A program made the translations under genes and the position numbers. From Nitrospinota bacterium (lineage in GTDB: Bacteria > Nitrospinota > Nitrospinia > JACRGO01), in the NCBI GenBank assembly GCA_016212295.1, contig JACRGO010000049.1, positions 1 to 16,370 of the forward strand: 16,370 nucleotides of DNA, in the 5' to 3' direction. The notes below the pieces were generated by a model, which did no database searches, was not told where the DNA came from, and saw only the letters and a program-made list of their open reading frames with translations. Shown piece by piece: positions 1 through 16,370 of this stretch. Every line of letters begins with the position of its first letter. Within the stretch, counting starts at the first letter, position 1.

Positions 1-110
1 AGCTCTACTGTCCTCCTTGTAAGGGCATGGCCGCCCGGGTGTAATATTTCTATCCCGCTAAGTTCAATGGTGTCTTCAATGGTTGGTTTGTGAATGCCTT
101 TTCTTTTCAT
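1..110 (-). CDS. N-terminal fragment of a possible SAM-dependent methyltransferase
   Basis: An open frame starts with ATG at 110-108 and runs off the left window edge, so only about 36 residues are visible. A strong Shine-Dalgarno, AAGGAGG, lies at 116-122, five bases before the ATG, which makes the start convincing. The visible peptide contains LSGIEILHPGG followed by ALTRRTVE. From memory, this resembles the N-terminus of some class I SAM-dependent methyltransferases, where an LHPGG-LT-R stretch precedes the nucleotide-binding core. No SAM motif is visible yet, so the function is a guess. It starts 23 bases after the permease stop on the same strand and is probably the fourth gene of the TetR-ABC operon. 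Confidence 0.6.
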   Translation of the reverse strand, partial: MKRKGIHKPTIEDTIELSGIEILHPGGHALTRRTVE

Positions 111-133
111 AACGGCCTCCTTAAAAATAAGGG

Positions 134-2506: not shown

Positions 2507-2520
2507 AGTAGTATTGATAT

Positions 2521-2561
2521 AACCCACCCCGGCGCTCCGCGCCACCCCTCCAAGGAGGGGA
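2521..2561. repeat. REP-like double-hairpin element (single copy)
   Basis: Two adjacent perfect hairpins lie here: GGCGC-TCC-GCGCC at 2531-2543 and CCCCTCC-AA-GGAGGGG at 2545-2560, preceded by AACCCACCCC. The same two-hairpin unit, with different but still complementary stem bases, forms both ends of the element at 13007-13188. It sits between the ATPase and permease genes of one operon. It could affect mRNA stability or the ratio of the two products. It is read through without stops in the frame of the permease. Confidence 0.8.
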
Positions 2562-2600
2562 GATTTTATGTGCATTTTATTTTGAGACTTTTAATATGGC

Positions 2601-3299
2601 CTATTGCGTCCTGCTGCGGCCCGTGTCATCAACAATCATGCCGTCCTTGAGGGTAATGATCCGGTCATATTCAACGTATGCAACTTTTTCGTGAGTCACG
2701 ACAATAACGGTCTTGCCGGTCCCAACCAGTTCGGTGAACAGATTCAGGATAATTTCCGTGGTTTTACTGTCCAGATTGCCGGTTGGCTCGTCCGCCACCA
2801 GAATCGGCGGGTCGTTGGCCAGCGCTCTGGCAATGGCGGCCCGTTGCTGCTCCCCGCCGGAAAGGGCCACTGGCAGTTTGTCAGTCTGTTGCGAGATGCC
2901 AACCTGCGCAAGCAAGGCCCCGACTCGCTTTGCGCGCTCCCTGCCTGGGATGACGTTCACAAAATCCATCGCCAACAGTATGTTTTCCTTGACGGTCAGG
3001 GTAGGGATGAGTTGAAAAAATTGAAATACTATGCCTACATTTTTTCCCCGCCACCCGGCAAGAGCGCTTTCGTTAAGTGCGTGGACATCCGTGGAATTGA
3101 TCCTGACCGTACCCTGGCTGGGATGGTCAATGCCTGTCAGCATATTGAGCAGGGTGGATTTGCCGCTTCCGGACTTGCCGGCAATCGCCACATGATTCCC
3201 CTGTGCGATATGGAGATTAATGTTTTTCAGCGCGTCAAAACGGCCTGAAGCCGACTCGAACCACCTGGAAACCTGATTGAACTGAATAAAGTTTGGCAT
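2601..3299 (-). CDS. ABC transporter ATP-binding protein, MacB/LolD type
   Basis: The protein is 232 residues, the usual length for stand-alone LolD/MacB/YbbA-type ATPases. All nucleotide-binding motifs are intact: Walker A GKSGSGKST (41-49), Q-loop glutamine 93, signature LSGGEQQ (146-152), Walker B ILVADEP (166-172) with the catalytic glutamate, D-loop NLDS (175-178), and switch histidine 203 (VTHE). The start ATG at 3299 is backed by AGGAGG nine bases upstream. It powers the permease encoded next on the same strand, so the pair should form a homodimeric ATPase with one or two large permeases at the inner membrane. The gene begins 14 bases after the end of the TetR gene, so the two are almost certainly co-transcribed. 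Confidence 0.95.
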   Translation of the reverse strand: MPNFIQFNQVSRWFESASGRFDALKNINLHIAQGNHVAIAGKSGSGKSTLLNMLTGIDHPSQGTVRINSTDVHALNESALAGWRGKNVGIVFQFFQLIPTLTVKENILLAMDFVNVIPGRERAKRVGALLAQVGISQQTDKLPVALSGGEQQRAAIARALANDPPILVADEPTGNLDSKTTEIILNLFTELVGTGKTVIVVTHEKVAYVEYDRIITLKDGMIVDDTGRSRTQ

Positions 3300-3313
3300 A
3301 TCAATGTCCCTCC

Positions 3314-3946
3314 TTAGCGTCTTCGGATTATTTTTTTAGGCGGTGCGGTTTTGCGCTTTTTGCTGGGCGGCGCCATGCCGTTCCAGAGAGCCTCTACAAA
3401 TTGTCCCACAAGGGGGTCCATGTCCTTTCCGCCGTGAATCTCCATCAGCTCGAATACCGCCAGACTGTGTATCGCGGCAACGAAGAGCCCGGCCGTAGCC
3501 ATGGGATTATCGGCCTTTATCACTCCTTGTGAATTTGCCTCCTTCATGTGCGCGGCCAGGGCCTCCGCCAATTCCTGTTCCGGCATGACTTTAAAGTGGG
3601 CGGCCACATCAGCCATGCTGACCGATGGATTGGTTATCAGGTGCATGATGACGGGAATGAGCGTGCGGAAGTAGTCCAGAATTCTGCGGCCGATCTCCGT
3701 CATGGCCTGGCGCGGATCCGTCCCCTTTGTGCATGAATGGATCACGGCGTCTATATCAACCTGCCGGGGGACCATCGCGGCCAGAAAAAGCTCGGCCTTC
3801 GTGGGATATCTCTGGAATATAGTGGCTTCCGAGACCCCGGCCCTGCGGGCGATTTCCTTGGTTGACCCGAATGCCCCACTCTTCAGAAACACTTCCCGCG
3901 CATGCTGCAGCAACTGCTCATCGCGAATTGTCTTGTGGCGCCCCAT
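3314..3946 (-). CDS. TetR/AcrR-family transcriptional repressor
   Basis: The protein is 210 residues when started at ATG 3946. That start is preferred over ATG 3964 because a GGAGG lies eight bases before it. The N-terminal helix-turn-helix (about residues 8-55) carries typical TetR features: AREVFLKSGAFGSTKEIARRAGVSEATIFQRYPTK in pieces, with a glycine turn and the IFQRYPTK recognition-helix end. The rest is the variable helical ligand-binding domain, and the tail is very basic (KKRK, IIRRR). It is the first gene of the unit that contains the ABC transporter. An 18-base inverted repeat over its own promoter indicates autorepression, relieved by a small-molecule ligand that is probably related to the transporter substrate. 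The ligand is not predictable. Confidence 0.92.
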   Translation of the reverse strand: MGRHKTIRDEQLLQHAREVFLKSGAFGSTKEIARRAGVSEATIFQRYPTKAELFLAAMVPRQVDIDAVIHSCTKGTDPRQAMTEIGRRILDYFRTLIPVIMHLITNPSVSMADVAAHFKVMPEQELAEALAAHMKEANSQGVIKADNPMATAGLFVAAIHSLAVFELMEIHGGKDMDPLVGQFVEALWNGMAPPSKKRKTAPPKKIIRRR

Positions 3947-3967
3947 GATTGGTTCCTCCATCATAAT

Positions 3968-3985
3968 TAAGTTAGCACTAACTTA
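3968..3985. promoter_or_regulatory. TetR-type operator, 18-base inverted repeat
   Basis: TAAGTTAG-CA-CTAACTTA is a perfect inverted repeat with 8-base arms and a 2-base centre. It lies 22 bases before the regulator's start codon. Its left edge, read on the minus strand, overlaps the last base of the -10 box, so a bound dimer would cover the transcription start. Size and position fit a TetR-family operator. Binding itself is inferred. Confidence 0.8.
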
Positions 3986-4013
3986 TGATAATATTTCAAA
4001 CACCTCCTGTCAA
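3985..4013 (-). promoter_or_regulatory. Sigma-70-type promoter of the TetR-ABC operon
   Basis: On the minus strand a perfect -35 TTGACA (4013-4008) and a -10 TATCAT (3990-3985) are separated by exactly 17 bases. The operator follows immediately. No other comparably good promoter was seen for this unit. Confidence 0.8.
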
Positions 4014-4541
4014 GCCTTTTTTTAGATACTTACCCGCCGCAAAAAAGAGATAAACTTTCCGACCGTGAAAAAACATTGCGCTTTTTTTTGAAAATTTCAA
4101 ATATTTTGGGCTAGGTTTTCTTGGACCCCAGGGGATGCGCCCATTTAATCAATCCGCCACCGGAACGGATTTCCTGCACGATACTGAATCCTGCCTCCAT
4201 GGCTTTATTTCGCCGGGCGGTGCGTGCATTGAGGTTTGCGCTGATATTTGCATTGACGTCCTTTTTTCCCCCGCGCGGCTTTGTTGATATTCTGTAACGG
4301 CGCATTATGATGGATGTTGAATTTGCCGGATGAAAGCCATGTTTAACTACATTATTGTTATTTTTTTTTAATGCAGTTAATGATGATATTATTACGTTCA
4401 GGAATTTACATTTTCCGCTTAAAATAAAATCAGCGTTGAATGCTTCAAGAGAAATTTATTTTGATTGCGGCCATGCGCTCTCCAAGAAGCGGTTGAAAAA
4501 CTTGCGCGGAAAACACAAATTTCTGGGCGTAATAATATAAA
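4014..4541. other. Divergent intergenic region, no clear gene
   Basis: This is an AT-rich stretch of 528 bases between the left operon and the plus-strand genes. It contains a 15-base perfect palindrome centred at 4094 (TTTGAAA-A-TTTCAAA) and one weak minus-strand frame, listed separately. I see no tRNA, convincing riboswitch or intrinsic terminator. The promoter of the downstream TPR-like gene must lie here, but no strong -35/-10 pair stands out. Confidence 0.5.
4111..4305 (-). CDS. Doubtful small basic ORF, 64 residues
   Basis: This minus-strand frame encodes a lysine/arginine-rich peptide of 64 residues ending in LIKWAHPLGSKKT. It has an ATG start but no visible ribosome binding site, and I recognise no family. 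It lies upstream of the TetR operon promoter on the same strand. Its G+C content is higher than that of the surrounding spacer, the only hint of coding. It could be a chance frame or the remnant of a larger gene. Confidence 0.22.
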   Translation of the reverse strand: MRRYRISTKPRGGKKDVNANISANLNARTARRNKAMEAGFSIVQEIRSGGGLIKWAHPLGSKKT

Positions 4542-4592
4542 ATGGACACGCGAGCTAAAAAAAAAGCGGCGAAGGAAAAGAAACGCAAGTAG
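4542..4592 (+). CDS. Lysine-rich 16-codon leader ORF in frame with the next gene
   Basis: ATG at 4542 starts a 16-residue peptide, MDTRAKKKAAKEKKRK, that ends with TAG at 4590-4592. The next base begins the ATG of the TPR-like gene in the same frame. The lysine-rich character continues after the stop (MRRQKKAA). The simplest reading is one original gene whose codon 17 became an amber stop. A translationally coupled leader or stop-codon read-through are alternatives. A run of nine A lies at 4557-4565. Confidence 0.4.
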   Translation: MDTRAKKKAAKEKKRK

Positions 4593-5123
4593 ATGCGGAG
4601 GCAAAAAAAAGCCGCTGATACCATAGGGCTGGCGCTGGACCATCTGGAGCGGGACCTGGAGGAGGCCGCTAGGCGGAAAGAGCAAAGCCGCATGGTGGAC
4701 ATCGCCCGCAAAATCCTGAACATCAACGAATCCCATCCACTGGCATGCCGCACCCTCGCGGACCATTACTGGCGCTACGGCGACCCGGACAACGCATATT
4801 TTTATTTTAACAAGCTCACCTCCAGGGCTAATCCCCTTTCCCTGGATTTTTATTATCTGGGGGAGTTCCAATTCCAGCAGCAACGATACGAAGAGGCCCA
4901 GGACGCCTTCAAGAAATTCCTGGGGATGGCCAGATTCTCCATGGAAAGGGAAGTGCGGCTTTTAATCAGCGTAGCCAAGCAAAGGACGAAATTATTAAAG
5001 GACCTCATCAGGAAGGAATCACAATTAAGCCTCTTCACTAAAGAGGGATTATCATTATTTATTAAATCGTTGCTGAACAATAAAAAATTTAATATAAAGA
5101 TATTGGATCAGGCCTCTGCTTAA
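4593..5123 (+). CDS. Small TPR-like helical repeat protein
   Basis: The protein has 176 residues, with no signal peptide or membrane helix. Residues 46-76 (SHPLACRTLADHYWRYGDPDNAYFYFNKL in outline) and 80-113 (a YYLGEFQFQQQRYEEAQDAFKKFL-like stretch) have the alternating A/Y/F/G pattern of two tetratricopeptide repeats. A basic, probably helical N-terminus (residues 1-40) precedes them. TPRs are protein-binding scaffolds; no partner is indicated. The start ATG 4593 directly abuts an in-frame TAG, so the true N-terminus may lie at 4542 (see leader ORF). No enzyme motif is visible. The next gene, V-type ATPase subunit D, begins 300 bases downstream, too far to claim an operon. Confidence 0.7.
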   Translation: MRRQKKAADTIGLALDHLERDLEEAARRKEQSRMVDIARKILNINESHPLACRTLADHYWRYGDPDNAYFYFNKLTSRANPLSLDFYYLGEFQFQQQRYEEAQDAFKKFLGMARFSMEREVRLLISVAKQRTKLLKDLIRKESQLSLFTKEGLSLFIKSLLNNKKFNIKILDQASA

Positions 5124-5346
5124 AAGGAATACCTAAAACATGGATAATGAATAGGCTCTGAAAAAAGGCCAACTCCATTCTGATCGGCATTAAGTAAAAA
5201 TAATAGGTCCACCATACGATGTTGGGTTCCATCCAGAAAAATGTTATATTTGGTTTTATATTATTTTTTGATGGATGCAGAGACGCCCGCGGTACGTTAT
5301 TTATTAAAAAAATTTTATTACGCCGCTGAACTATGCCGGCTTATTT

Positions 5347-5381
5347 CGATGTTCAGTGTTGGATGTTAGATGTTCAATTCC
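5347..5381. repeat. Degenerate heptamer tract (NNATGTT)
   Basis: Five consecutive 7-base units (CGATGTT, CAGTGTT, GGATGTT, AGATGTT, CAATTCC) lie in the spacer before the V-ATPase gene. The period is exact while the first two bases vary. Similar tracts occur at 6149, 6241, 7812 and 10638. Confidence 0.7.
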
Positions 5382-5422
5382 TTAAAGTCCGCCAGAGATG
5401 GCGTTAAGTCAAGCGTGTAAAA

Positions 5423-6049
5423 ATGCCCAGAACCAAAACAAATAGAATAGAGCTGATACGCTTACGCAAAAGGCGGGAGCTGGTGGTAAAGGGGATATCC
5501 CTGTTGACCAGCAAACGCGACGCCTTGATGATTGAGTTCAAGGGGGCGGTAAAGGACGTCCGCCAAATCCGCGAAAAACTTGATTCCCAAATGGCGGAGG
5601 CTTCGCAGGCCCTCATCATGGCCAGGGCGGCGGAACCTCATCACTTGCTGGCCGCCGCGTCCCTTGCCTCGCAAAAAGAAATATCATTTGAAATGTCCAT
5701 GAAAAACGTGTGGGGTGTGCGCATACCCTCCGCGCGATTTCCGGACGCGAGGAGAAATCCATTTGAGCGGGGGTCGGCCCCTGGGCCGCGAAGCCTTTAT
5801 GTGGATGAATCCGCCGGCCTCTTCGAGGAGGTCATAAACACCCTGGCCACAAGCGCCTTGGCTGAGCAGCGTCTCCTGGAAATAGGCGGGGCGATCAAAA
5901 AGGCCACCAGGAGGGTGAACGCCCTGGAAGGCAAGGTAAAGCCGGAGATGGAAAATGACATAAATATTATTCAGACACGGCTGGAGGAAATGGGCAGGGA
6001 GGAAACCTTCCGGTTGAAACGTTTTAAACGGTTGAAGGAAAGGAGATGA
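5423..6049 (+). CDS. ntpD: V-type (A/V) ATPase subunit D, isolated
   Basis: The protein is 208 residues, the normal size for subunit D of V-type/archaeal-type ATPases. This subunit forms the central coiled-coil rotor stalk linking the A3B3 head to the membrane ring. The family pattern is clear at both ends: an N-terminal NRIELIRLRKRRELVVKGISLL-type helix, then KRDALMIEF; a central NVWGVRIP; and the C-terminal helix with TRRVNALE and REETFRLKRFKRLKER. Both long helices needed for the coiled coil are present, so the gene looks functional. No other V-ATPase subunit (A, B, C, E, F, I or K) is in this window, although bacterial subunit D genes normally sit directly after A and B. ATG 5423 is the only sensible start; no Shine-Dalgarno is visible. 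Confidence 0.9.
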   Translation: MPRTKTNRIELIRLRKRRELVVKGISLLTSKRDALMIEFKGAVKDVRQIREKLDSQMAEASQALIMARAAEPHHLLAAASLASQKEISFEMSMKNVWGVRIPSARFPDARRNPFERGSAPGPRSLYVDESAGLFEEVINTLATSALAEQRLLEIGGAIKKATRRVNALEGKVKPEMENDINIIQTRLEEMGREETFRLKRFKRLKERR

Positions 6050-6398
6050 CTGTATCGGAATTTCAAGGTTTTGCTATATAAAACAAAGGCATATTACAAC
6101 GAATTGACACTAATTGTTTCTAAAGGTCAAAAAGTGTATTTTGAAAATCCAAATCACAATTGCCAAATAACAAATAAATCTCAATAACCAAAATTACAAA
6201 GAACAAACAAGGAAAAAGAAATGGAATTGTTTTGGACATTCGGTAATTGTAATTTGTAATTTATTTGTAATTTGCTATTTGTCATTTGGAATTTTGTTTC
6301 ACTTTTGGTTGCGGCCATGCCGCGCTATGAAATATCCGTGTTAATTCGTGGTTCCAGGCTTTTTATTAATCAATTTGCTAATCTATGTTCTTGAAATC
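6050..6398. repeat. Paired heptamer tracts forming a large imperfect inverted repeat
   Basis: This 349-base spacer contains no gene. At 6149-6210 a CAAATNN-type 7-base tract (CCAAATC, ACAATTG, CCAAATA, ACAAATA and so on) is followed at 6241-6296 by the complementary NNATTTG type (TAATTTG, CTATTTG, TCATTTG). Each arm is about 60 bases, so the transcript could form one long imperfect hairpin. A short nonamer-like segment (ATCCGTGTT, AATTCGTGG) at 6336-6353 and a small GCGGC-CAT-GCCGC palindrome at 6311-6323 complete the region. Confidence 0.7.
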
Positions 6399-7559
6399 AT
6401 GGGCATTTTCGATCTGTTAAAAAAATTCGGGATTTTCACGCAGGCCACAAAGGATATCCCCGGCTGCATCACCAATCCGAAGGAAATCCATGGTCATTTA
6501 AAACATATAGGCGAGCAAAAAATCCCGCTGAATCTTCAACTGGACGGTAAATATGAGCAATACTCCAGCCTCTTTCTGAAAAACACCAAAGGCGATCCAT
6601 CGGCGTTTTTCATCGATCCCCTGGTCCCCAAGGAAGGAAACAGAATCCTCGAAGACTCACTGGCAGCCACCTTTTCATATACATTCGAGCGGAAGAGGTT
6701 TACCTTTGACACGGCATTCGCCGGGTCCGTCCAGAGGGAGATAAAAACCATAAAGATCGAACTGCCGAGGACAATCGAGGAATCGGACCGCAAAAAATCC
6801 GGGAACATTGCCGGGCCATTGGAAACGCCTCTAAAGGTCAGGCTGGCCCATTTGGAAAGTGTTTGTGAAAACGGCGCTCCTCTGGACCTCAAAATCCACG
6901 ACCTGTCAAAAACCTTTAAAAGCAGCTTCGTGCATGTTTCCAAAGGGACCCCTCCAGAAATCTTCATTGATATGCTAAAGCCAAAGGAAGGGAACGAACA
7001 AATCAAAAAATCCAGGGACATCCACCTTTCCTACAATTTTCAAAACCGTCACTTTGAATTCGAGAGCGAGTTCGAGGAAATAGAAAGGAAAACCATAACC
7101 GCGCTCAAATTCCGCGTCCCAAGGGCCGTTGAAGAGGTGATGCTCAGAAGGATAACCACGATTGCTCCCGCCGATGGCCAATCATCAACATTATTGGAGA
7201 GAAGAAGATTCCAAAGGGTCAGCCCCGCCACCGGCTCTCCAGTGAATGTATATCTCGGATATGGAAGGGGAAAAACCGAATTGGCCAATATCAGCGTGGG
7301 AGGCGCGGCTTTTTATACCAAGTTGACCTCTAAGGACATGAAGGTTGGATCGGTCTTTTATAAAATGACTCTCGCCCTCCCGGGGGAAGAAGGAAAAATC
7401 GTCATTCCTAAAGCGGTCGTCCGTAACATCGTTGAAAATGTTGCCGTCAACAAAAAGACAAAGAACCTGTGTTCCCTGGAATTCTTTGGTTTAGGCATAA
7501 CAGACCAGGACGCGATCAGGAGATATATCGCGAAAAGGACGCGGGAAACAGGGACCTGA
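6399..7559 (+). CDS. PilZ-domain c-di-GMP receptor with duplicated N-terminal module
   Basis: The protein has 386 residues from ATG 6399. A longer GTG frame from 6348 adds a hydrophobic stretch translated from repeat-like spacer and is less likely. Residues about 28-125 and 145-242 are two copies of a beta-rich domain resembling the YcgR-type N-terminal domain; each carries the same mark, IDPLVPKEGN (72-81) and IDMLKPKEGN (190-199). A C-terminal PilZ domain follows from about 265. It has both halves of the c-di-GMP-binding signature: R269-x-x-x-R273, and N297-x-S299-x-x-G302 within NISVGG. The protein should therefore sense c-di-GMP and act on motility, surface or secretion behaviour. The target is unknown, because no flagellar or polysaccharide genes adjoin it. 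It is cytosolic, with no membrane helix. Confidence 0.85.
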   Translation: MGIFDLLKKFGIFTQATKDIPGCITNPKEIHGHLKHIGEQKIPLNLQLDGKYEQYSSLFLKNTKGDPSAFFIDPLVPKEGNRILEDSLAATFSYTFERKRFTFDTAFAGSVQREIKTIKIELPRTIEESDRKKSGNIAGPLETPLKVRLAHLESVCENGAPLDLKIHDLSKTFKSSFVHVSKGTPPEIFIDMLKPKEGNEQIKKSRDIHLSYNFQNRHFEFESEFEEIERKTITALKFRVPRAVEEVMLRRITTIAPADGQSSTLLERRRFQRVSPATGSPVNVYLGYGRGKTELANISVGGAAFYTKLTSKDMKVGSVFYKMTLALPGEEGKIVIPKAVVRNIVENVAVNKKTKNLCSLEFFGLGITDQDAIRRYIAKRTRETGT

Positions 7560-7874
7560 AAAAATGAAGCTCTCCGTTGCAAGCTACGGGTATTTGTTGA
7601 AGATTTTTTTTATAGCATCCCCCTTGGTCCCCCTTTGTTAAGGGGGAATCAATTGGAGACCCGTGGCAAGCCACGGGGAATTATTAAAAAATTTACCAGA
7701 CTGCCGGGTGGTTTCCTTAAAAATCTCTTTTTCCCACTTTTCACCGATTACACGAATTTTATAAAAAAAAATAATTTAATCCGCGCAATCCGCGTAATCT
7801 GTGGTTAGAAATGTTCTTCGATGTTCAATGTTAATCTTTTAATTCTTCTTTTATTTTTTTAATAATCCTTGCCT
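7560..7874. repeat. Spacer packed with palindromic and short-period repeats
   Basis: No gene is visible in this spacer. It holds CCGTTGC-AAGC-TACGG-like hairpin DNA at 7574-7589. A perfect hairpin CCCCCTT-TGTT-AAGGGGG lies at 7629-7646, and another, CCCGTGG-CAAG-CCACGGG, at 7660-7677. A 9-base tandem (AATCCGCGC, AATCCGCGT, AATCTGTGG) lies at 7778-7804, with its rough complement CACCGATTACACGAATT at 7742-7758. A heptamer tract follows at about 7812-7855. None of the hairpins is followed by a T-run, so they are not ordinary intrinsic terminators. Confidence 0.7.
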
Positions 7875-10625
7875 ATGTCCCCGCCAATCACATCTTCAAC
7901 CGGAATGGTCCTTGGGGCGCCGATCTTCACGCGGCATCCACTCAAGGCCATCTTCTCGCCCAAAACCGTGGCGGTAATCGGGGCCACTGACAAGCCGGGC
8001 AGCGTTGGCCGCACTATCCTGTGGAACCTCATCAGCGCCTCCTTCGACGGCACGGTCTTCCCGGTCAATCCGAAAAGGCCCAGAGTCATGGGCGTCAAGG
8101 CGTATCCAGGCATCGGGGCAGTGCCGGAGGCGGTCGACCTTGCCGTGATAGCAACTCCCGCCTCCTCGATACCCGGGATAATGAGCGAGTGCGTGGAGGC
8201 CGGGGTAAAAGGCGCGATCATCATATCCGCCGGTTTCAGGGAAAGCGGGCCGGCGGGCGTTGAGCTGGAAAGAAAAACGCTTGAGGAAGCGCGGCGCGGA
8301 AAGATACGGATAATCGGCCCTAATTGCCTGGGCGTGATGAATCCAATCACGGGCCTCAACGCCACCTTCGCTGCTGCAATGGCCAAGCCGGGAAAAGTCG
8401 GCTTCATCAGCCAGAGCGGCGCCCTTTGCGCCGCTATCCTCGACTGGAGCTTTCGCGAAAACGTGGGCTTCAGCGCCTTTCTTTCCATCGGCTCCATGCT
8501 GGATGTGGGCTGGGGCGACCTTATTTATTACCTAGGCGATGATCCGCGCACCGAGAGCATCGTTATCTACATGGAATCCATCGGCGACGCCGCGTCCTTT
8601 CTATCCGCCGCCCGCGAGGTGGCCTTGTCAAAACCCATCATCGTGATCAAGGTGGGCCACACTGAGGCGGCGGCAAAGGCCGCTGCCTCCCATACCGGGA
8701 GCATGACAGGAAGCGACGACGTGCTGGACGCCGCCTTCCGCAGGTGCGGGGTGCTGAGGGTCAGCGCCATTGAGGACCTCTTCTATATGGCCGAGGTCCT
8801 GGCCAAGCAGCCCAGGCCAAAGGGGCCGAGGCTCGCCATTCTCACAAACGCGGGCGGGCCCGGGGTCCTTGCCACTGACGCCCTCATCTCCACCGGAGGC
8901 AGGCTTGCGGAATTGTCAGGCAAGACCATCGAATCACTTAACGCAATCCTTCCGGTCCACTGGAGCCACGGCAATCCCGTGGATATTTTAGGGGACGCCG
9001 ATTCAGACCGTTACGCAAAGGCCTTGGAGGTCGTGGCCAAGGACCAGGGAAACGACGGCCTGCTAGCCATATTGACCCCGCAGGCCATGACGAATCCAAC
9101 CCGGACCGCCGAGGCCCTGAAGCCTTACGCCGACACTGACGGCAAGCCTGTGCTGGCCAGTTGGATGGGCGGCGCTGAGGTGATGGAGGGCGAGGCCATT
9201 CTCAACAAGGCCGGTATTCCCACCTTCCCATACCCGGATATCGCGGCCCGCATCTTCAATTATATGTGGAAGTACAGCTTCAATCTCCACGCCCTGTATG
9301 AGACCCCCAGCCTGCCGCCTGAATCCGTGGAAGCCGCGCGCAGCCGCGCGCAAGCCGAGGAAGATATAAGGACAGCCCGGAAAGCAGGCAGGACGGTCCT
9401 GACCGAATTGGAATCAAAGCGGATTCTGTCCGCCTTCGAAATTCCAGCAGTGGAAACCCGCCATGCGGCCACGGAGGAGGAGGCGGTCCAGGAAGCGGAG
9501 AAGATGGGCTGTCCGGTGGTCCTCAAAATTCACTCCCTCACCATCACCCATAAGACCGATGTCGGGGGAGTCAGGCTTGGGCTAAATAACGCGGATGAGG
9601 TCCGCAAGGCGTTCCGTTCCATAAAAACCTCGGTTACGGAAATGGCCGGGCCTGAACATTTCCAGGGAGTGACTGTCCAGCCCATGGTCCAGCGCCAAGG
9701 TTATGAAATAATACTCGGCAGCGGCTTCGATCCCCAGTTCGGTCCGGTCCTGCTTTTCGGCTCCGGTGGACAACTGGTGGAGGTGTTTCGCGACCGCGCC
9801 CTGGCCTTGCCGCCGCTCAATACCACCCTGGCGCAGCGAATGATGGAAGAGACCCTTATTTACAAGGCGCTTAAATGCGTGCGCGGCGGGAAGCCCATTG
9901 ACTTGCCGGCCCTTGAACAGCTCATTGTGCGGTTCAGCCGGCTTGTGGCGGCGTTCCCCGCCATAAAGGAGATCGACGTCAACCCCCTGCTTGTCTCAGC
10001 CGAGGGGTTGATTGCCCTGGACGCCCGCGTTGTCCTTCACGATCCTGGCGTAAGCGAGGACAAGCTTCCCAAACCGGCCATACGGCCTTATCCGCTTCAA
10101 TATGTTTCCGACTGGACCTTGAAGGACGGCGCCTCCATAACCATAAGGCCAATCAGGCCGGAAGACGAGCCGATGATCGTAAAATTCCACCAGGGCTTGT
10201 CAGAGCGAAGCGTTTATTTCCGTTATTTCCAGGTATTGAAGCTAAGCCAAAGGGTCGCGCACGAGCGTTTGGCGCGGATTTGCTTTATCGACTACAACCG
10301 GCAGATGTCCCTGGTGGCCTGCAGGAAAAATCCACAAAGCGGAGAGCAGGAAATTTTCGGCGTGGGCAGATTGACAAAGATCCACGGCAGGGACGAGGCG
10401 GAGTTCGCCATCCTCATAAGCGACACCTTCCAGAGGGGCGGCCTGGGCACTGAGCTGCTCCGCAGGCTGATACAGGTGGCCAGGGACGAAAAGCTCGTTC
10501 GCCTCTTAGCCGATATCCTGCCGGGAAATAATGGAATGATACGAATCTGCGAAAAACTCGGATTCCGGCTTTTCCGCGATCCAAATGATCCGGTGGTGAA
10601 GGCGGAACTGAATTTGATGGAATAA
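7875..10625 (+). CDS. ADP-forming acyl-CoA synthetase fused to GNAT acetyltransferase (Pat/YfiQ-like)
   Basis: The protein has about 916 residues. Positions here count from the TTG at 7869, two codons earlier. Residues about 28-130 form a CoA-binding Rossmann domain ([15 protein letters not shown]), and 160-480 succinyl-CoA-synthetase-like domains with the phospho-histidine motif SHTGS (His 275). Residues 500-735 form an ATP-grasp domain with HKTDVGG (His 561). Residues about 752-915 are a GNAT domain with the acetyl-CoA loop [10 protein letters not shown]. The family includes bacterial protein lysine acetyltransferases that regulate acetyl-CoA synthetase, and ADP-forming acetate-CoA ligases. 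In the enterobacterial Pat enzymes the synthetase part is generally thought to be inactive. Here both histidines are kept, so it may also interconvert acyl-CoA with acid plus ATP. ATG 7875 was chosen; no good ribosome binding site is visible. Confidence 0.9.
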
Positions 10626-10637
10626 CATAAAGAGCTG

Positions 10638-10714
10638 AACATCGAACGTCCAACATCGAACTTTGAACCTTTAATCTTTAACCTTGAACCCTGAACCTTG
10701 AATCATGAATAAAA
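10638..10714. repeat. Eleven-unit heptamer tract (AACNNNN) running into a start codon
   Basis: Eleven consecutive 7-base units keep perfect register from 10638 to 10714: AACATCG, AACGTCC, AACATCG, AACTTTG, AACCTTT, AATCTTT, AACCTTG, AACCCTG, AACCTTG, AATCATG, AATAAAA. The tenth unit contains the ATG (10705) of the following gene. The tract fills almost the whole spacer after the acyl-CoA synthetase gene. Confidence 0.85.
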
Positions 10715-11445
10715 AAACCTCCGCCATAGTGCAGGCCCGCATGAATTCAGAGCGCCTGGCTGGAAAAATCCTCGCGCCCATATCCGGAGTTCCATTATTG
10801 CTGCACGTCATCGAAAGACTGAAAAAAGTCCATGGCCTTGAGGGCATAATCATTGCCACGACCGACCGCAAGGAAGACGACGGGACAGAGGAGTTTTGCC
10901 GGGCGCAGGGAATAAAATGTTTTCGAGGCGACAGCGAGGACGTGTTGAAAAGGTTCATCGACGCCGCGGCTGAGGCCTTCGGCGTGGACGTGATAGCAAG
11001 GATCTGCGCGGACAATCCCCTGTTCGACGTCCCGTTTCTGGCAAGGATGCTGGAGGAGCATCTGAAGTCCGGGGCAGACGTCACGTATTCATCCGCTTCC
11101 GTTCCCATAGGCTCCACGCAGGAGGTGGCTTCATTCGAGGCGCTGAAGAGGGCAAGCCTGGAAACTAATGACCCGAAATGCAGGGAGCACGTCACTCCCT
11201 ATCTCAAGGAAAACCCGGACAGGTTCAAGAACCTTGTGCTTGAGCCGCCGGACTACCTTGCGGGCCACCCGGCCAGACTGACAGTGGACACGGCGGCGGA
11301 CCTTGAACTGGCCAGGAAGATTTACGAGCGCCTGTACAAGCCAGGTTCCATTGTGGATTTAAAGGATGCCTTGGCTCTTCTTGATTCCAATCCCGATTGG
11401 ATGAAAATCAATTCCGCCGTCCGGCAGAAAGGTTGGAAGGAATAG
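10705..11445 (+). CDS. SpsF/CMP-sugar-synthetase-like cytidylyltransferase
   Basis: The protein has 246 residues. The nucleotide-binding N-terminus reads AIVQARMNSERLAGKIL (7-23), the usual QAR-x-x-S-x-R-x-x-GK pattern of the acylneuraminate/KDO cytidylyltransferase superfamily. The metal/sugar site RICADNPLFD lies at 99-108. The C-terminal RLTVDTAADLELARKIYE is the hallmark of the SpsF branch (spore-coat polysaccharide protein F). Such enzymes activate an unusual sugar acid or similar sugar as a CMP derivative for surface glycan or flagellin glycosylation. The exact substrate is unknown, and no other sugar genes lie in the window. There is no Shine-Dalgarno: the start codon is embedded in a heptamer repeat tract, so translation may rely on the unstructured AT-rich leader. 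Confidence 0.85.
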   Translation: MNKKTSAIVQARMNSERLAGKILAPISGVPLLLHVIERLKKVHGLEGIIIATTDRKEDDGTEEFCRAQGIKCFRGDSEDVLKRFIDAAAEAFGVDVIARICADNPLFDVPFLARMLEEHLKSGADVTYSSASVPIGSTQEVASFEALKRASLETNDPKCREHVTPYLKENPDRFKNLVLEPPDYLAGHPARLTVDTAADLELARKIYERLYKPGSIVDLKDALALLDSNPDWMKINSAVRQKGWKE

Positions 11446-11741
11446 GCTTTCGCGGCGCTTGCTATAGTATGGATGCTACCCGCCTATTCTGATAATTTAT
11501 CACGCACATTATTAAGCCCTGAAGGGGGCGAAAGAAAATCGCTCAATTGAGATTACATTGATTTTTTGCAGTTTTCATTGTATCTTGGCATCAAGCTTGA
11601 GTAAGTACAAAAATAATTACCGCTGTTGATGCGGCGCAAATGACAGAATTGTCCGGCAACTCCGACGCGCATTACGCGAGCGCAGGCTTTAGCAAATCCC
11701 ACGAACCGTCTGCGGTTGCCGCTCAATTCCGCCATTAGCCA
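11446..11741. other. Boundary spacer with a large imperfect palindrome (attC-like)
   Basis: No gene is visible. Base composition falls from about half G+C to AT-rich to the right of this point. At 11639-11664 and 11713-11736 lie the two arms of an imperfect palindrome. They share GAATTG and CGGCAA against TTGCCG and CAATTC, with regularly placed mismatches, around a 48-base centre. The outer edge reads GGC-GCA-AAT on the left and ATT-A-GCC on the right, ending five bases before the next gene. A recombination site of integron attC type is one explanation. Positions 11620-11669 recur at 13673-13717. Confidence 0.5.
11620..11669 (+). repeat. Copy A of a ~48-base imperfect direct repeat
   Basis: This stretch and 13673-13717 align from CCGCTG through GCGC-AATG-C-GAATTG-CCGGCA-CTC to a GATGC/GACGC end, with roughly four in five positions equal by eye. 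The two copies flank the cyclase-like gene and the interrupted membrane-protein gene. Confidence 0.6.
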
Positions 11742-12641
11742 ATGAAAATTATGAATAACCGTAATAGTAAAGCAAATAAAAACGACCTGACATTTCAGCA
11801 TTATCTTATTGTCTTTCTTGATATTCTTGGACAAAGAAGAACCTTGCGTGAAATTAAAGATTTGCCTACAAATGAGAATGAAAAAGAAATCTTCTTAGAT
11901 AAAATACGTAAAACAGTAGGGAAGGTTGATGTACTCCGAAATACTTTTCGGGATTTTTTTAACGCTTCAAATTCGCATGTCCCAAATACCGGCCTTGTGC
12001 CTCCAGAACATCGTGAAGAATTCATTGCTTCTCAAAAATCTGAAGCCTACTTTTATGGCTTTTCTGACTCCATAATCGTGGCTGTGCCGCTAATGAACAA
12101 CGATGAAAATTGTACTGCTATTAATGGAGTTTATTCCGCACTGGTAGCTACTTGTGGTATAGGTTTTGTCAGCCTTGCTGCTACTATTGCTTTACGTGCT
12201 GGATTAGATATTGGAATTGGAACGAAAATTGAAGGGCACGAAATATACGGTCCGGCATTAGAACGTGCTCATTTTATTGAAAGCAACTTAGCAGAGTATC
12301 CTCGCTTTGTTGTAGGTAAAGAACTTATAAATTATTTATTAGGGGTTGAAAATCAACAGTGTAACACTCGTCTTGGTGTGATGGCAAAAGGTATGGCCAA
12401 GCTTTGTAAGGAAATGATCATTAGAGACACAGACGGGCGTTTCATGCTTGATTTCATGGGGGAAAAATCCAAGGAGGCGGCTGATGATTCAATTAATGCT
12501 AAAGTAGTAAAACTCGCACGTGACTTTGTGGTTTCACAGCATCAAAAATATGTGAATGATGAAAATGAAAAACTTGCTTCCAGGTATTTTCGATTATTAA
12601 AGTATATCAACTCACGGGAAAAAATATGGGGTGTTGAGTAA
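11742..12641 (+). CDS. Uncharacterised protein resembling a class III nucleotidyl cyclase domain
   Basis: The protein has 299 residues, with no signal peptide. ATG 11742 or ATG 11751 may be the start; neither has a clear ribosome binding site. I do not know a named family for it. Three blocks are laid out like a class III adenylate/guanylate cyclase fold. The first is a strand ending in FLDILG (Asp27, Gly30), where cyclases have their first metal-binding Asp. The second is FSDSIIVAVPL (Asp109), where they have the GD-turn. The third is LRAGLDIGIG...EIYGPALERAHFIESNLAEYPRFVVG (151-192), like the R-G-x-x-x-G...GPAVNxAARLE region. Residues 131-150 are hydrophobic and helical. It may make a cyclic nucleotide, for example for an anti-phage signal, or be a degenerate cyclase. 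The gene is AT-rich relative to the housekeeping genes and followed by an unusual fold-back site. Confidence 0.75.
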   Translation: MKIMNNRNSKANKNDLTFQHYLIVFLDILGQRRTLREIKDLPTNENEKEIFLDKIRKTVGKVDVLRNTFRDFFNASNSHVPNTGLVPPEHREEFIASQKSEAYFYGFSDSIIVAVPLMNNDENCTAINGVYSALVATCGIGFVSLAATIALRAGLDIGIGTKIEGHEIYGPALERAHFIESNLAEYPRFVVGKELINYLLGVENQQCNTRLGVMAKGMAKLCKEMIIRDTDGRFMLDFMGEKSKEAADDSINAKVVKLARDFVVSQHQKYVNDENEKLASRYFRLLKYINSREKIWGVE

Positions 12642-12647
12642 TAACTT

Positions 12648-12716
12648 GGCTAACATCGGACTTAACCGAATGTGCGGAAAAAGCTCCCGCACACCTGCTA
12701 GCCCAGGCGTTAAGCC
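12648..12716 (+). other. 69-base cloverleaf / attC-like site after the cyclase-like gene
   Basis: The outer stem is GGCTAAC (12648-12654) with GTTAAGCC (12709-12716, one bulged A). Inside lie three hairpins: TCGG-ACTTAA-CCGA (12656-12669), TGTGCGG-nine bases-CCGCACA (12671-12693) and CCTG-CTAGCC-CAGG (12694-12707). The right end matches the integron attC R' consensus GTTRRRY, and the left end nearly matches RYYYAAC. It starts six bases after the stop of the cyclase-like gene and ends 19 bases before the next start. It lacks the conserved bases of a tRNA. Confidence 0.5.
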
Positions 12717-12952
12717 TTAAAATTATCCCAAAATCATGTCAAATCTATTTAAATTGAAATCCATTGAAAATATTTATTGGCCACCTAAATGTGTGGTATG
12801 TGAAACAAAAGAAAACTTTTCTTCCTTAAACACAACCTGTTCTATTGTGACAGGCCTTTCATCTAACCTTATTACTGTTTCTACCCATCATAAATTAGTT
12901 ACATTTTATTATCCAATATGCAGGAAGCACAAAATTGTAAGAAGCTGTCTTG

Positions 12953-12980
12953 AAAAAAAAGTTTGCCCCGAAAGGCAAAC
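12953..12980 (-). terminator. Perfect intrinsic terminator-like hairpin, minus strand, inside a gene
   Basis: Read on the minus strand: GTTTGCC, loop TTTCGG, GGCAAAC, then eight T. Stem and T-run are ideal for factor-independent termination, but the site lies within the coding part of the interrupted gene, and no minus-strand gene ends here. It could stop antisense transcription or be accidental. Confidence 0.45.
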
Positions 12981-13006
12981 ATGCGATTGGTATAAAAAAC
13001 CCGCTG

Positions 13007-13188
13007 ACACACCCCGGCCTTCGGCCACCCCTCTCAAGAGGGGAATTCATAGGCGGTGGCGTCCTTTCAATAGGATATTAATGAATAAGGCGCCGCGGCA
13101 AGCCCATGGAAATTATACTGCCGCGATTAAATTTTTTTCCTTTGAAAAATTCCCCTCTTGAGAGGGGTGGCCGCAGGCCGGGGTGTGT
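13007..13188. mobile_element. MITE-like 182-base element with ~40-base composite inverted ends
   Basis: The left end (13007-13046) reads ACACACCCCGG, hairpin GGCC-TTC-GGCC, A, hairpin CCCCTCT-CA-AGAGGGG, AATT. The right end (13149-13188) is the inverse, with hairpin GGCC-GCA-GGCC and ending CCGGGGTGTGT. The 100-base centre has no coding capacity and includes CCGCGGCAAGCCCATGG (13093-13109), a variant of the hairpin at 7660-7677. No clear target duplication is visible. It interrupts a gene frame. Non-autonomous mobility is inferred from the inverted ends and from the related single unit at 2521-2561. Confidence 0.7.
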
Positions 13189-13547
13189 TAAGGATTTCAG
13201 TGGCTGCTTGCAAGGCGGCGGACCATAATGCTTTTTTCAAGACAGCTTCTAAATCTTTTTACAAGGCTTTTTACTACAAGAAGGTTGCTTACATTAGCAT
13301 TAAACCTTTTTATTTCCGTTTTTGCTTTTTTGACGGTTTTGATTCCATTTTTAGGAAGGGGATTAAATGAATCGGATTATTGGATCATATTGATAGGAAT
13401 TGTAGGTACGTTTTTTTTAGTTTTTAGTTGGAGATGGACACCAGTACGAATCAAAGATTTCGATGAAAACAATATTTTCCTTTTTATAAGAAACGACATT
13501 TATGCTCGTGAGTTTAAACATGTAAACAGGGAGAACATATCTGAATC

Positions 13548-13661
13548 GGCATAACCAAGTCATCAACCTGAGCCGGCAAACGTGGAGCTTTTTAGGTTCT
13601 TACCTCAGTTCTTGTTTCCCCTCTTTTTTCGTGCATTGTCTGTATCCGGCCAGCTTATGCC
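13548..13661 (+). other. Third fold-back site (GGCATAA ... TTATGCC)
   Basis: A perfect 7-base outer inverted repeat, GGCATAA at 13548-13554 (it contains the stop codon of the preceding gene) and TTATGCC at 13655-13661, encloses an inner pair GCCGG (13572-13576) / CCGGC (13646-13650). The start ATAACCAAGTCATCAACCTGA looks like the left half of an integron attC site (TAAC plus a TCAA-C-GA box), but the right end lacks GTTRRRY. Confidence as a recombination site is low. Confidence 0.35.
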
Positions 13662-13672
13662 AATCGTTCGTT

Positions 13673-13717
13673 CCGCTGACGCAGCGCGAATGGCGGAATT
13701 GCCCGGCACTCGGATGC
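13673..13717 (+). repeat. Copy B of the ~48-base imperfect direct repeat
   Basis: This is the counterpart of 11620-11669, lying between the interrupted membrane-protein gene and the toxin-antitoxin pair. The opposite palindrome arm seen next to copy A is absent here. Confidence 0.6.
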
Positions 13718-13795
13718 TTCCTTCGCCCCCAAATGTGGCGCAAACAAATCATTCGAGCAAAGATATCGAAGGATCATAGCCACCAGTTATTTTTA

Positions 13796-13805
13796 AAAAC
13801 GTTTT
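13796..13805. promoter_or_regulatory. Palindrome AAAACGTTTT before the toxin-antitoxin pair
   Basis: A perfect 10-base palindrome lies 29 bases before the antitoxin start, in an AT-rich leader. Type II toxin-antitoxin operons usually repress themselves through such a site; that role is inferred only. Confidence 0.3.
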
Positions 13806-13834
13806 CAATGCATCTTTAAAAGGAGGCACAGATT

Positions 13835-14053
13835 ATGAGTCAGAAGATTGTTTCGTTCCAGGAGGCTTTAGATGTAATCGAATCTTTCCCGGAATATCAG
13901 CAGCAGGATCTTATCGAAATCATTCAAAATAGACTCACTGAGAAAAGACGGGAAACGATTGCTGGAAACATAAGGGAAGCGAGAAAAGAATATAATAGAG
14001 GAGATGTTAGAAAAGGTTCTGTTGAAGATATAATGCAAGAGATTACAAAATGA
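13835..14053 (+). CDS. Type II antitoxin of a RelE/ParE-like pair
   Basis: The protein has 72 residues, acidic and predicted to be all-helical. AGGAGG at 13821-13826 gives a strong start at ATG 13835. Its sequence (EALDVIESFPEYQQQDLIEIIQNRL, then ENIREARKEYNRGDVRKGSVEDIMQEI-like C-terminus, in outline) matches my memory of a common family of small antitoxins encoded just before RelE/YafQ/ParE-fold toxins. The N-terminal part should dimerise or bind DNA, and the C-terminal helix should wrap the toxin. The gene overlaps the toxin start by four bases (ATGA), showing translational coupling. Confidence 0.85.
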   Translation: MSQKIVSFQEALDVIESFPEYQQQDLIEIIQNRLTEKRRETIAGNIREARKEYNRGDVRKGSVEDIMQEITK

Positions 14054-14334
14054 GAACGCTCGTTTGGGGCAATACGTTTATAAGGGCGTTAAAAAGGACA
14101 ATAAAAAGAAATCCGCAATATAAACGTATTATTGAGGGCACATTAAGAGCATTAGAAGAAGACCCTTTCGCGCCAAAGCTGGAAACCCATAAACTTAAAG
14201 GAAAACTATCAGGATCATGGGCATGTACTGTAAGATGTGACTTGCGAATAATATTTGATTTCGTAAAGAGTTTAGATCAAAAAGAAGACGACATTTTATT
14301 GCTGGATATTGGAACACATCGTGAAGTTTATTAA
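14050..14334 (+). CDS. RelE/ParE-superfamily toxin
   Basis: The protein has 94 residues, the standard size for this fold. The core is typical: F-x-RALKRTIKRNPQ in helix 1, LEEDPFAPKLETHKLKGKLSGSWACTVRCDLRIIFDF in the sheet, and a final LLLDIGTHREVY. The HKL-x-G-L-x-G-x-W-x-x-x-V-x-x-DLRI signature and the terminal GTHxxVY are the family marks of YafQ/RelE-type ribosome-dependent mRNA interferases. ParE-type gyrase toxins share the fold, so the target is not certain. The start codon overlaps the antitoxin stop. All key positions look intact, so the pair is probably functional. Such pairs are frequent in mobile arrays and islands, as here. Confidence 0.88.
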   Translation: MRTLVWGNTFIRALKRTIKRNPQYKRIIEGTLRALEEDPFAPKLETHKLKGKLSGSWACTVRCDLRIIFDFVKSLDQKEDDILLLDIGTHREVY

Positions 14335-14436
14335 GTTGGAGCAGAACGTTTATTTCCCTGATACAAAGAGAGCCATTTGATTATACGAAGTGGCGTCAAG
14401 GCTTAAATAAAAATTTGTCGATAGATATTTAGTCAT

Positions 14437-14643
14437 TTGGCGACTGACAATTCAAAAAAAGCCAATAGATACTGGTCACATCGCTTGTGCCCCTTCAACA
14501 ATAGAGTGCCGAATTGCACGAAAGACAAGGCAAAAGCCCCTCTTGGCGTTTGCAGCATCTATCATGAAAACCACCCGGTAATCACTTGCCCTATTAGATT
14601 CCGCGAAGATTGGCTTATAACCGATGATGCCGCATCCTTATAG
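14437..14643 (+). pseudogene. Truncated NotI-family restriction endonuclease, N-terminal part
   Basis: The 68 visible codons start with TTG 14437 (no clear ribosome binding site). They carry the cysteine pattern CPF...C..DK...PLGVCSIY...ITCPIRFREDWLITDDAA, typical to my knowledge of the N-terminus of NotI-like type II restriction enzymes, where these cysteines bind metal. Family members are roughly 300 residues or longer, so about three quarters, including the nuclease core, is missing. The frame ends in TAG at 14641, eight bases before the methyltransferase start. A deletion probably fused the two. The fragment alone should not cut DNA. Confidence 0.65.
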
Positions 14644-14650
14644 ATTTGAA

Positions 14651-15588
14651 ATGCCTAAACCGGTTAACGTTGCCTCGGTCCCCCAACGAAGCCCTTTTCG
14701 ATATCCCGGTGGTAAAACATGGTTTGTTCCTACCTTCAGGCATTGGATATCGACCATGCGTGCAAAACCCGCAATCATTGTTGAACCCTTTGCTGGTGGC
14801 GGGATTATCAGCCTGACCGCTCTTTTCGAGAATTTGGTTCAAAAGGCTGTTATGGTGGAACTTGATGAAGAAATTGCTGCGGTTTGGATATCATAGTTCA
14901 AGGCGACGCTGAATGGCTTGCTAACCGCATTCTTGATTTTGAATTATCAAAAGAAGCGGTCATAAGTGAAATAAAAAAAATCCCGCTCACGCTGAGAGAA
15001 AAGGCATTTCAGACAATTCTCAAGAATAGAACATTTCATGGCGGCATTCTGGCCGAAGGTTCAGGGTTCCTCAAATACGGCGAGAACGGGAAAGGCATTC
15101 ATTCCCGCTGGTATCCCGCGACAATCGCGAAACGAATTCTAAACCTGGCCAATATTGCCGATAGGATTGATTTTCGTTGTGATGACGGCTTGAAGGTAAT
15201 GGAGGAATTCTCCGGCAGATGTGGCGTTGTTTATTTTATCGATCCTCCCTATACAGCCGGCGGCAAAAAAGCAGGCAAGCGTTTATACAAACATTATGGC
15301 TTGGATCATGAGCGATTATTTCGCGCGTGCGAAAATATGGAAGGCGATTTCCTGATGACGCATGATAACGCTGAAGAAGTCAAGGATATGGCTCGAAGCC
15401 ATGGTTTTCAAATGCGCCTGGTACCCATGAACAACACGCATCATGCGACAATGGAGGAACTGGTGATCGGCAGGAATTTATCATGGATGGACGGTTTTCC
15501 CTCGGTGCATGAGCTTAACGCTGAATATGCATACAGGGCAACAAAGAAAAAGCGGTGTGGCAAGCCGCTCAAGGCGGATACGGCATAA
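14651..15588 (+). pseudogene. D12-class DNA adenine methyltransferase with a one-base frameshift
   Basis: The N-terminal part (from ATG 14651; an earlier ATG at 14624 overlaps the NotI fragment) has the SAM motif X FRYPGGKT, motif I VEPFAGGG and motif II VELDEE, and then hits TAG at 14894. The remaining protein continues in the next frame from 14887: DIIVQGDAEWLANRIL, then catalytic motif IV FIDPPYTAGGKKAGKRLY, and TAA at 15586-15588. Restoring one G in TTTGG-ATATC (14883-14892) would give AAVW-DIIVQGDAEW and a single enzyme of about 313 residues. The enzyme class methylates adenine N6 and would have protected the site cut by the adjoining NotI-like enzyme. The lesion could be real decay or a sequencing error. 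Confidence 0.75.
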
Positions 15589-15871
15589 AGCCGCCATAAC
15601 TTTTAGCTTAAAAATTAAGTTTATAAGCACATATGAAAGAACTCAATACAGTTAAAAAATATTAATGACCATTTTCAGTTAGAAGTTAATGATGCATATA
15701 TGGATGTTAAAAAAAACCATACGAATGAATATTTCTCAATTGATGTAATAAATTATGAAAAAGTTCATTGCTGTTCAAAATAGAATTTTTTAATATTATA
15801 GTCCCTTTGTTTTCAACGTTTTTGGACAAGAAAATTCAAATTTCCAGATTAAGGTTTCATATTTTACTTTT
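15589..15871. other. AT-rich spacer without a recognisable gene
   Basis: This stretch of 283 bases is very AT-rich. It includes a weak CTTAA-AAA-TTAAG hairpin at 15607-15619. A segment TTTTTGGACA at 15827-15836 is roughly inverse to CTGTCCAAAAC at 15886-15896 near the transposase stop; these could mark an insertion-sequence end. I see nothing else. Confidence 0.35.
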
Positions 15872-16370
15872 TTATCCATAAGCTGCCTGTCCAAAACCCG
15901 GGAATTGAAATTGCGGTGAATTTTCTGGTGTTATTGGCGGTTTTCCAAAGGGGTCGTGGAGCCACTCCACTAAGTCCCTGTAACTAAAGAGATTCAACCT
16001 TAACATGGTTGCAAGATTTGACATGGACCATTGGGCCTTTGACAGGTGATGGAGGTATTTCAGCAGCATCAGCGTTATTAAGGCTGTCCAAATTTGAATG
16101 CGCAATGCGTTTTCCAATAAAGGTTTTAACTTTCAGATGCTGTTTAAGGGTTTTAAAGAAAATCTCGATTTCCCAGCGATCTTTGTAGATGGAAGCAATA
16201 GTGCTGGAGCCGAATTCCAGGTGATTGGCAAGCAGGACAATTTCACGGCCATTGACTTCGTCCCGGACCACCACACGCCTGAGGAGATGCGGACACCGTT
16301 CTTCAGCTTTAATGCCGGTAAGGCTAATGATCTGGTCCGCCAAAATAGAGCGGTTTTGGGGAATTTTGCG
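15872..16370 (-). pseudogene. IS4-family transposase, C-terminal part, frameshifted and cut by the window edge
   Basis: The minus-strand frame is open to the right edge. It encodes ILADQIISLTGIKAE..., LRRVVVRDE, then IVLLANHLEFGSSTIASIYKDRWEIEIFFKTLKQHLKVKTFIG. The Y-x-x-RW-x-IE-x-FFK-x-LKQHL stretch is the Y-(2)-R-(3)-E-(6)-K signature of IS4-family DDE transposases, including the catalytic Glu. At about 16111-16116 the frame shifts: ENALRIQIWTALITLMLLKYL..., the normal continuation, lies in the next frame and ends at TAA 15872. The residues normally between FIG and ENA seem missing, so a small deletion is likely. The gene is probably inactive. Its N-terminal half lies outside the window. 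Confidence 0.8.

Follow-up and report, generated by a model that had tools for sequence, protein, structure and literature searches.

Apparent integron cassettes side by side: a mobile cyclase-homology-domain gene next to an unrelated, interrupted membrane-protein gene

On contig JACRGO010000049.1 of a Nitrospinota bacterium (assembly GCA_016212295.1), two adjacent forward-strand genes raise the question of whether they work as a unit. We analyzed positions 1 to 16,370 of this contig (the window, 16,370 nt). A sequence-only reading had joined a cyclase-like protein, gene 1, to the membrane-protein gene that follows it, gene 2, as a possible signaling-defense module with the layout of Pycsar anti-phage systems. 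Our analysis indicates instead that the "module" is in all likelihood two unrelated integron cassettes lying side by side, and that the first of them would carry, as its one gene, a member of a widespread cyclase-homology-domain (CHD) family.

Gene 1 (11,742–12,641, + strand) encodes 299 amino acids, and the motif blocks FLDILG, FSDSIIV, and RAGLDIGIG...EIYGPALERA...YPRFVVG are all present in its reading frame, as the earlier reading described. Its closest relatives are found in two Desulfobacteraceae genomes: the protein at locus L027 is 84% identical over its full length, and that at L028 is 63% identical and shortened at its C terminus. Gene 1 is thus a real gene, conserved across genomes.

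Alignment of the window gene with L027 and L028 revealed where the shared sequence starts. Homology begins at TTAGCC (TAGCC in L028), just 5′ of the start codon, and the upstream flanks are unrelated. Once a cassette is excised from an integron, its initial bases complete the core site, and their reverse complement is expected as the inverse core 3′ of the stop codon. Downstream of gene 1, the sequence GGCTAAC at 12,648 is the exact reverse complement of G plus TTAGCC, the first bases of the cassette itself (7/7; shuffle p = 0.005). The L027 cassette matches its own start at 6/7 positions (p = 0.09), and the cassette for a VOC protein that precedes the L028 gene does so at 7/7 (p = 0.002). The base to the left of TTAGCC is A, rather than G, in both the window and L027. 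The fold-back site between genes 1 and 2 (approximately 12,645–12,720) folds on the bottom strand with a z-score of −4.65, and none of 200 shuffled sequences folded as well. Cassette 1 accordingly starts at TTAGCC, ends with the G of the attC core that follows, and spans 11,735–12,709 (+); its attC spans 12,648–12,715 (+), with the inverse core GGCTAAC at 12,648–12,654 and the core GTTAAGC at 12,709–12,715. This attC folds strongly, yet its L″ and L′ boxes are degenerate, a departure from canonical integron cassettes, and it escaped detection by a strict attC finder. A search of Rfam found nothing.

The host genome encodes three full IntI integrases scoring over the cut-off and one broken copy (contigs C3, C146, C182, and C50), several of them near contig ends; none is on the window contig. 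Several near-identical attC sites occur in this genome. In the integrase-bearing contigs, the strict pattern search yielded no integron attC; sites were afterward located by manual inspection and sequence similarity. One IntI above the cut-off is encoded in the genome of L027 and one in that of L028. In neither of the two next-closest relatives does the genome encode one, and there the gene abuts its upstream neighbor in an operon-like arrangement. Given the boundary, the inverse-core match, and the integrases, an attC is the best reading of the site that separates genes 1 and 2, a reading that bears out the earlier suspicion that a fold-back site might mean independent movement of the two genes. 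Gene 1 would thus be a mobile integron cassette. Like described cassettes, including those with anti-phage functions, cassette 1 consists of one gene, terminated by an attC and in the same orientation, with integrases elsewhere in the genome; no cyclase-fold integron cassette was described in the literature library that we searched. Clusters of attC sites lacking an integrase are termed CALIN (PMC9024848). The two cassettes form a small CALIN-like cluster, which the draft assembly may have split from an integrase.

The surroundings support the description of this region as island-like. GC-rich segments at 11,620–11,739 and 13,655–13,760 flank both cassettes and form an 87% inverted repeat (TGCCGCTCAATTCCGCCATTAGC / GCGAATGGCGGAATTGCCCGGCA), and parts of 11,446–11,566 recur elsewhere in the host genome. 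A toxin-antitoxin pair with a YafQ/ParE-like toxin (E = 2.5e-8) lies directly 3′ of cassette 2, at 13,835–14,334; it is possibly a further cassette, with no clear attC after the pair. Farther downstream, a D12-class (Dam-like) adenine methyltransferase is spread over two frames at 14,624–15,588, apparently as a frameshifted remnant.

Gene 2 lies on the same strand in a cassette of its own. Cassette 2 (12,710–13,654, +) runs from TTAAGCC to its own attC core, as delimited by the inverse core and outer stem of an attC-like site at 13,548–13,661 (+), in which GGCATAA pairs with TTATGCC on the outside and GCCGG with CCGGC on the inside. The inverse core GGCATAAC at 13,548 matches the expected GGCTTAAC at 7/8 positions (shuffle p = 0.02). 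The gene itself spans 12,736–13,554 in two pieces that share a frame. Its 5′ part (12,736–12,939, +) encodes a zinc-ribbon-like CVVC...CRKH motif of the form CxxC...CxxH, and its 3′ part (13,251–13,554, +) encodes two predicted membrane helices and a tail, so the Cys/His site and helices noted earlier are both there. The interruption, also noted earlier, is larger than the visible palindrome: it consists of a whole 311-nt dispersed, MITE-like element at 12,940–13,250, whose ends, on comparison, carry 13-nt terminal repeats (AGAAGCTGTCTTG/CAAGACAGCTTCT). Within it lies a nested palindromic repeat (13,007–13,188) whose 41-nt arms are 98% complementary. With the element removed, the two pieces of gene 2 join in one uninterrupted frame. 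Near-complete copies of 92 to 98% identity occur in the same genome, which has 107 matching places, many at contig ends. Residues 61 to 90 of the first piece seemed to be repeated genome-wide; most of that repetition is the inserted element. Gene 2 matched no Pfam, NCBIfam, or PADLOC family and contains no recognized nucleotide-binding domain. Searches for homologues came up empty in plasmids and phages, in viral contigs, in the genomes of the four closest relatives, and in 77 genomes of the phylum. A lone 28% match among 395 genomes of the phylum of L027 covered a membrane stretch with a stop and was judged to be due to chance. Since these searches were limited, gene 2 is an orphan here rather than proven unique. 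It is a separate passenger cassette, now inactivated by a transposable element.

What, then, does gene 1 encode? An AlphaFold2 model built on a 74-row alignment reached a pLDDT of 89 and a pTM of 0.86. In a Foldseek search of the PDB, all 32 matches at E ≤ 0.001 were adenylate or guanylate cyclases. With VIA-align, the best match was Rv1264 (Z = 15.2 over 160 residues; rmsd 3.8), and the best 50 entries listed were all cyclases with Z > 13. A viral fold library gave one match at E ≤ 0.001, from a giant virus, and otherwise a giant-virus cyclase and noise. At the profile level, a PDB-sequence search with the family profile matched class III cyclases weakly but in register, and hhalign of the same profile to 30 canonical cyclase domains from kin genomes was colinear. 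The gene 1 protein is thus predicted to have the class III nucleotidyl cyclase fold, or CHD, in agreement with the layout that the sequence-only reading had recognized.

The active site sets this protein apart. Like class III cyclases (PF00211), it has their fold and motif order, and D27 and D109 align by hhalign with both canonical metal-binding aspartates. Unlike them, it lacks the transition-state Asn and Arg, whose positions in the GxxVNxAxR helix are occupied by E174 and F178 in the window protein; the description "not a standard" cyclase was apt. All 74 aligned members have D109, R152, P187, and R188, and 72 of them have E180; Asn occurs in 12, and no Arg is conserved. D27 is likewise invariant (74/74), partly by imposition, because FxDILG served as a scan pattern. 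The family thus differs from class III cyclases by its own invariant R152 and P187-R188, and the subclade of the window protein differs further by a helical insert between the two metal aspartates. Because the Asn/Arg pair is lost while R152 and P187-R188 are invariant, any chemistry would be nonstandard, and these residues may take over the roles of the lost pair. An ordinary class III adenylate or guanylate cyclase acting in host signaling, unrelated to defense, would share the domain-level fold, and canonical cyclases are numerous in genomes of this phylum. However, Pfam Guanylate_cyc does not match gene 1 and scores the true cyclases of the same genome at E = 1e-22 to 1e-40. Together with the missing catalytic pair and the patchy, cassette- and plasmid-borne distribution of the family, this makes an ordinary cyclase improbable.

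That distribution emerged when genome contigs were scanned with an alignment of five sequences and FxDILG as pattern, which yielded 77 relatives. Viral contigs contributed four more, three of them alike, and the genome scan, viral contigs, and four plasmid loci together amount to 83 distinct loci, which a profile search placed in one family. By record title its members come from 13 phyla, plus plasmids and viral contigs, as sampled by these narrow scans. Gene 1 had no match in Pfam, NCBIfam, or PADLOC; the family is unnamed in all three, yet widespread. The window protein did match phrog_23933 of PHROGs, a group of unknown function (E = 1.3e-9), as did the four plasmid-borne relatives (E = 1e-27 to 1e-35). 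In a quick tree, the window protein groups with the two Desulfobacteraceae sequences, and these form a long-stemmed clade of five with one Omnitrophota and one Planctomycetota sequence. This placement is consistent with lateral transfer.

The same loci allowed us to ask whether gene 1 keeps company with a membrane protein. L027 stands alone as a cassette, and L028 is flanked by the VOC cassette and by a small gene pair whose sequence resembles a toxin-antitoxin module; neither has gene 2 alongside, and gene 2 was undetected in both genomes. Among same-strand immediate neighbors within 100 nt of family genes, 2 of 44 have at least two predicted membrane helices. No membrane partner recurs among the 83 loci, and the membrane neighbors of different loci do not cluster. 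A zinc-binding, HNH-like neighbor (CxxC...EHxPP) was considered as a recurring partner and dismissed, being found at two loci only. The cassette boundaries and the neighborhoods of the homologues led us to reject an operon of genes 1 and 2. Co-occurrence of both genes was not found in the collections searched, which comes close to the outcome, homologues that never neighbor a membrane-protein gene, that the sequence-only reading had itself named as counting against the pairing.

These observations bear directly on a Pycsar-like two-gene module, in which gene 1 would make a cyclic pyrimidine that activates the gene 2 membrane protein. The gene 1 protein shares the cyclase fold and both metal aspartates with the PycC component of Pycsar (PycC with PycTM or PycTIR), and a membrane-protein gene does adjoin on the same strand. 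PycC proteins keep these aspartates (D102/D146 in EaPycC and D62/D106 in AnPycC; PMC11224242), and therefore those residues alone do not separate a Pycsar cyclase from other cyclases. Neither the window protein nor four relatives matched the PADLOC PycC profile at E ≤ 10, and no recurring membrane effector was found in the 83 neighborhoods; TIR-type neighbors were covered through PADLOC tallies of the 25 commonest families. With the two genes in separate cassettes, no recurring membrane family beside the relatives, and a putative effector that is broken and has no recognized nucleotide-binding domain, we regard the Pycsar-like module as very improbable. The proposed pairing of cyclase and membrane effector therefore finds no support.

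The defense half of that proposal fares better, on grounds other than gene 2: it is the type I restriction-modification (RM) and GajA/OLD neighbors of the family that suggest it. By neighbor clustering, HsdM-type methylases lie beside the family gene at six loci, with hsdS on the other side in three (L079, L082, and L093). In these three, the family gene has hsdS on one side and hsdM on the other, and the gene ends overlap or abut (L079:3697–7236, L082:3595–8118, and L093:3841–7149), and L082 carries two tandem family copies. GajA/OLD-type ATPases occur near the gene at six loci (L007, L034, L056, L064, L092, and L095). One or the other type of system is present at 11 of 83 loci (about 13%), L064 being counted in both sets. 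At L007 (3806–7011), genes for an AAA ATPase and a UvrD-type helicase come after the family gene in a Gabija-like arrangement, with AbiEii and PP2C genes upstream. Neighbor tallies by PADLOC (MTase_I, Specificity_I, and GajA) and by Pfam (N6_Mtase, HsdM_N, Methylase_S, AAA_15, MmeI_N, and ResIII) agree, and 99 control proteins from other loci gave at most one member per PADLOC family. The RM-linked members are scattered over several separate places in the quick tree. Because the control is small and drawn from other taxa, these counts do not measure an enrichment; they hint strongly that in some other bacteria the family associates with defense genes. Anti-phage systems carried by integrons have been published (Kieffer et al. 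and Darracq et al., as listed in PMC13092281).

The RM loci also bring in a different role for the domain. A catalytically dead CHD could bind a nucleotide or metal and serve as a sensor or regulatory subunit of neighboring defense enzymes, for example by tuning type I RM. The family-wide loss of the transition-state Asn and Arg is compatible with such a dead, nucleotide-sensing domain, as is the overlap or abutment with hsdS and hsdM at L079, L082, and L093. On the other hand, every member retains one metal aspartate and two arginines, as a dead domain need not do, and most relatives, including that of the window, are not beside RM genes. We consider a dead domain possible, if unlikely.

We favor, with a probability of roughly 0.6, the explanation in which two unrelated cassettes adjoin and cassette 1 carries a putative metal-dependent, cyclase-fold nucleotide enzyme of phage defense. 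The gene 1 protein would be a dimeric, Mg2+/Mn2+-dependent nucleotide-binding enzyme with R152 and P187-R188 in place of the lost catalytic pair, and it would act in phage defense either alone or with whichever defense system the gene lands beside. Stated more broadly, to cover sensing, the mobile gene probably encodes a metal-dependent protein of cyclase fold, a nucleotide enzyme or sensor, with a putative role in phage defense. A further step would make the family a new class of defense enzyme, with an active site rebuilt around the invariant arginines and P187, whose product or substrate is an unknown nucleotide signal, and which travels here on an integron cassette and elsewhere forms part of type I RM operons; this proposal is tentative and on present evidence rather unlikely.

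The window shows that cassette shuffling can mimic an operon. The family retains the metal-binding core of cyclases and not their catalytic pair, and RM or GajA/OLD loci adjoin its genes in several lineages. If the proposed role is correct, these proteins would represent a further nucleotide-based defense strategy, possibly one that moves as a single integron cassette.
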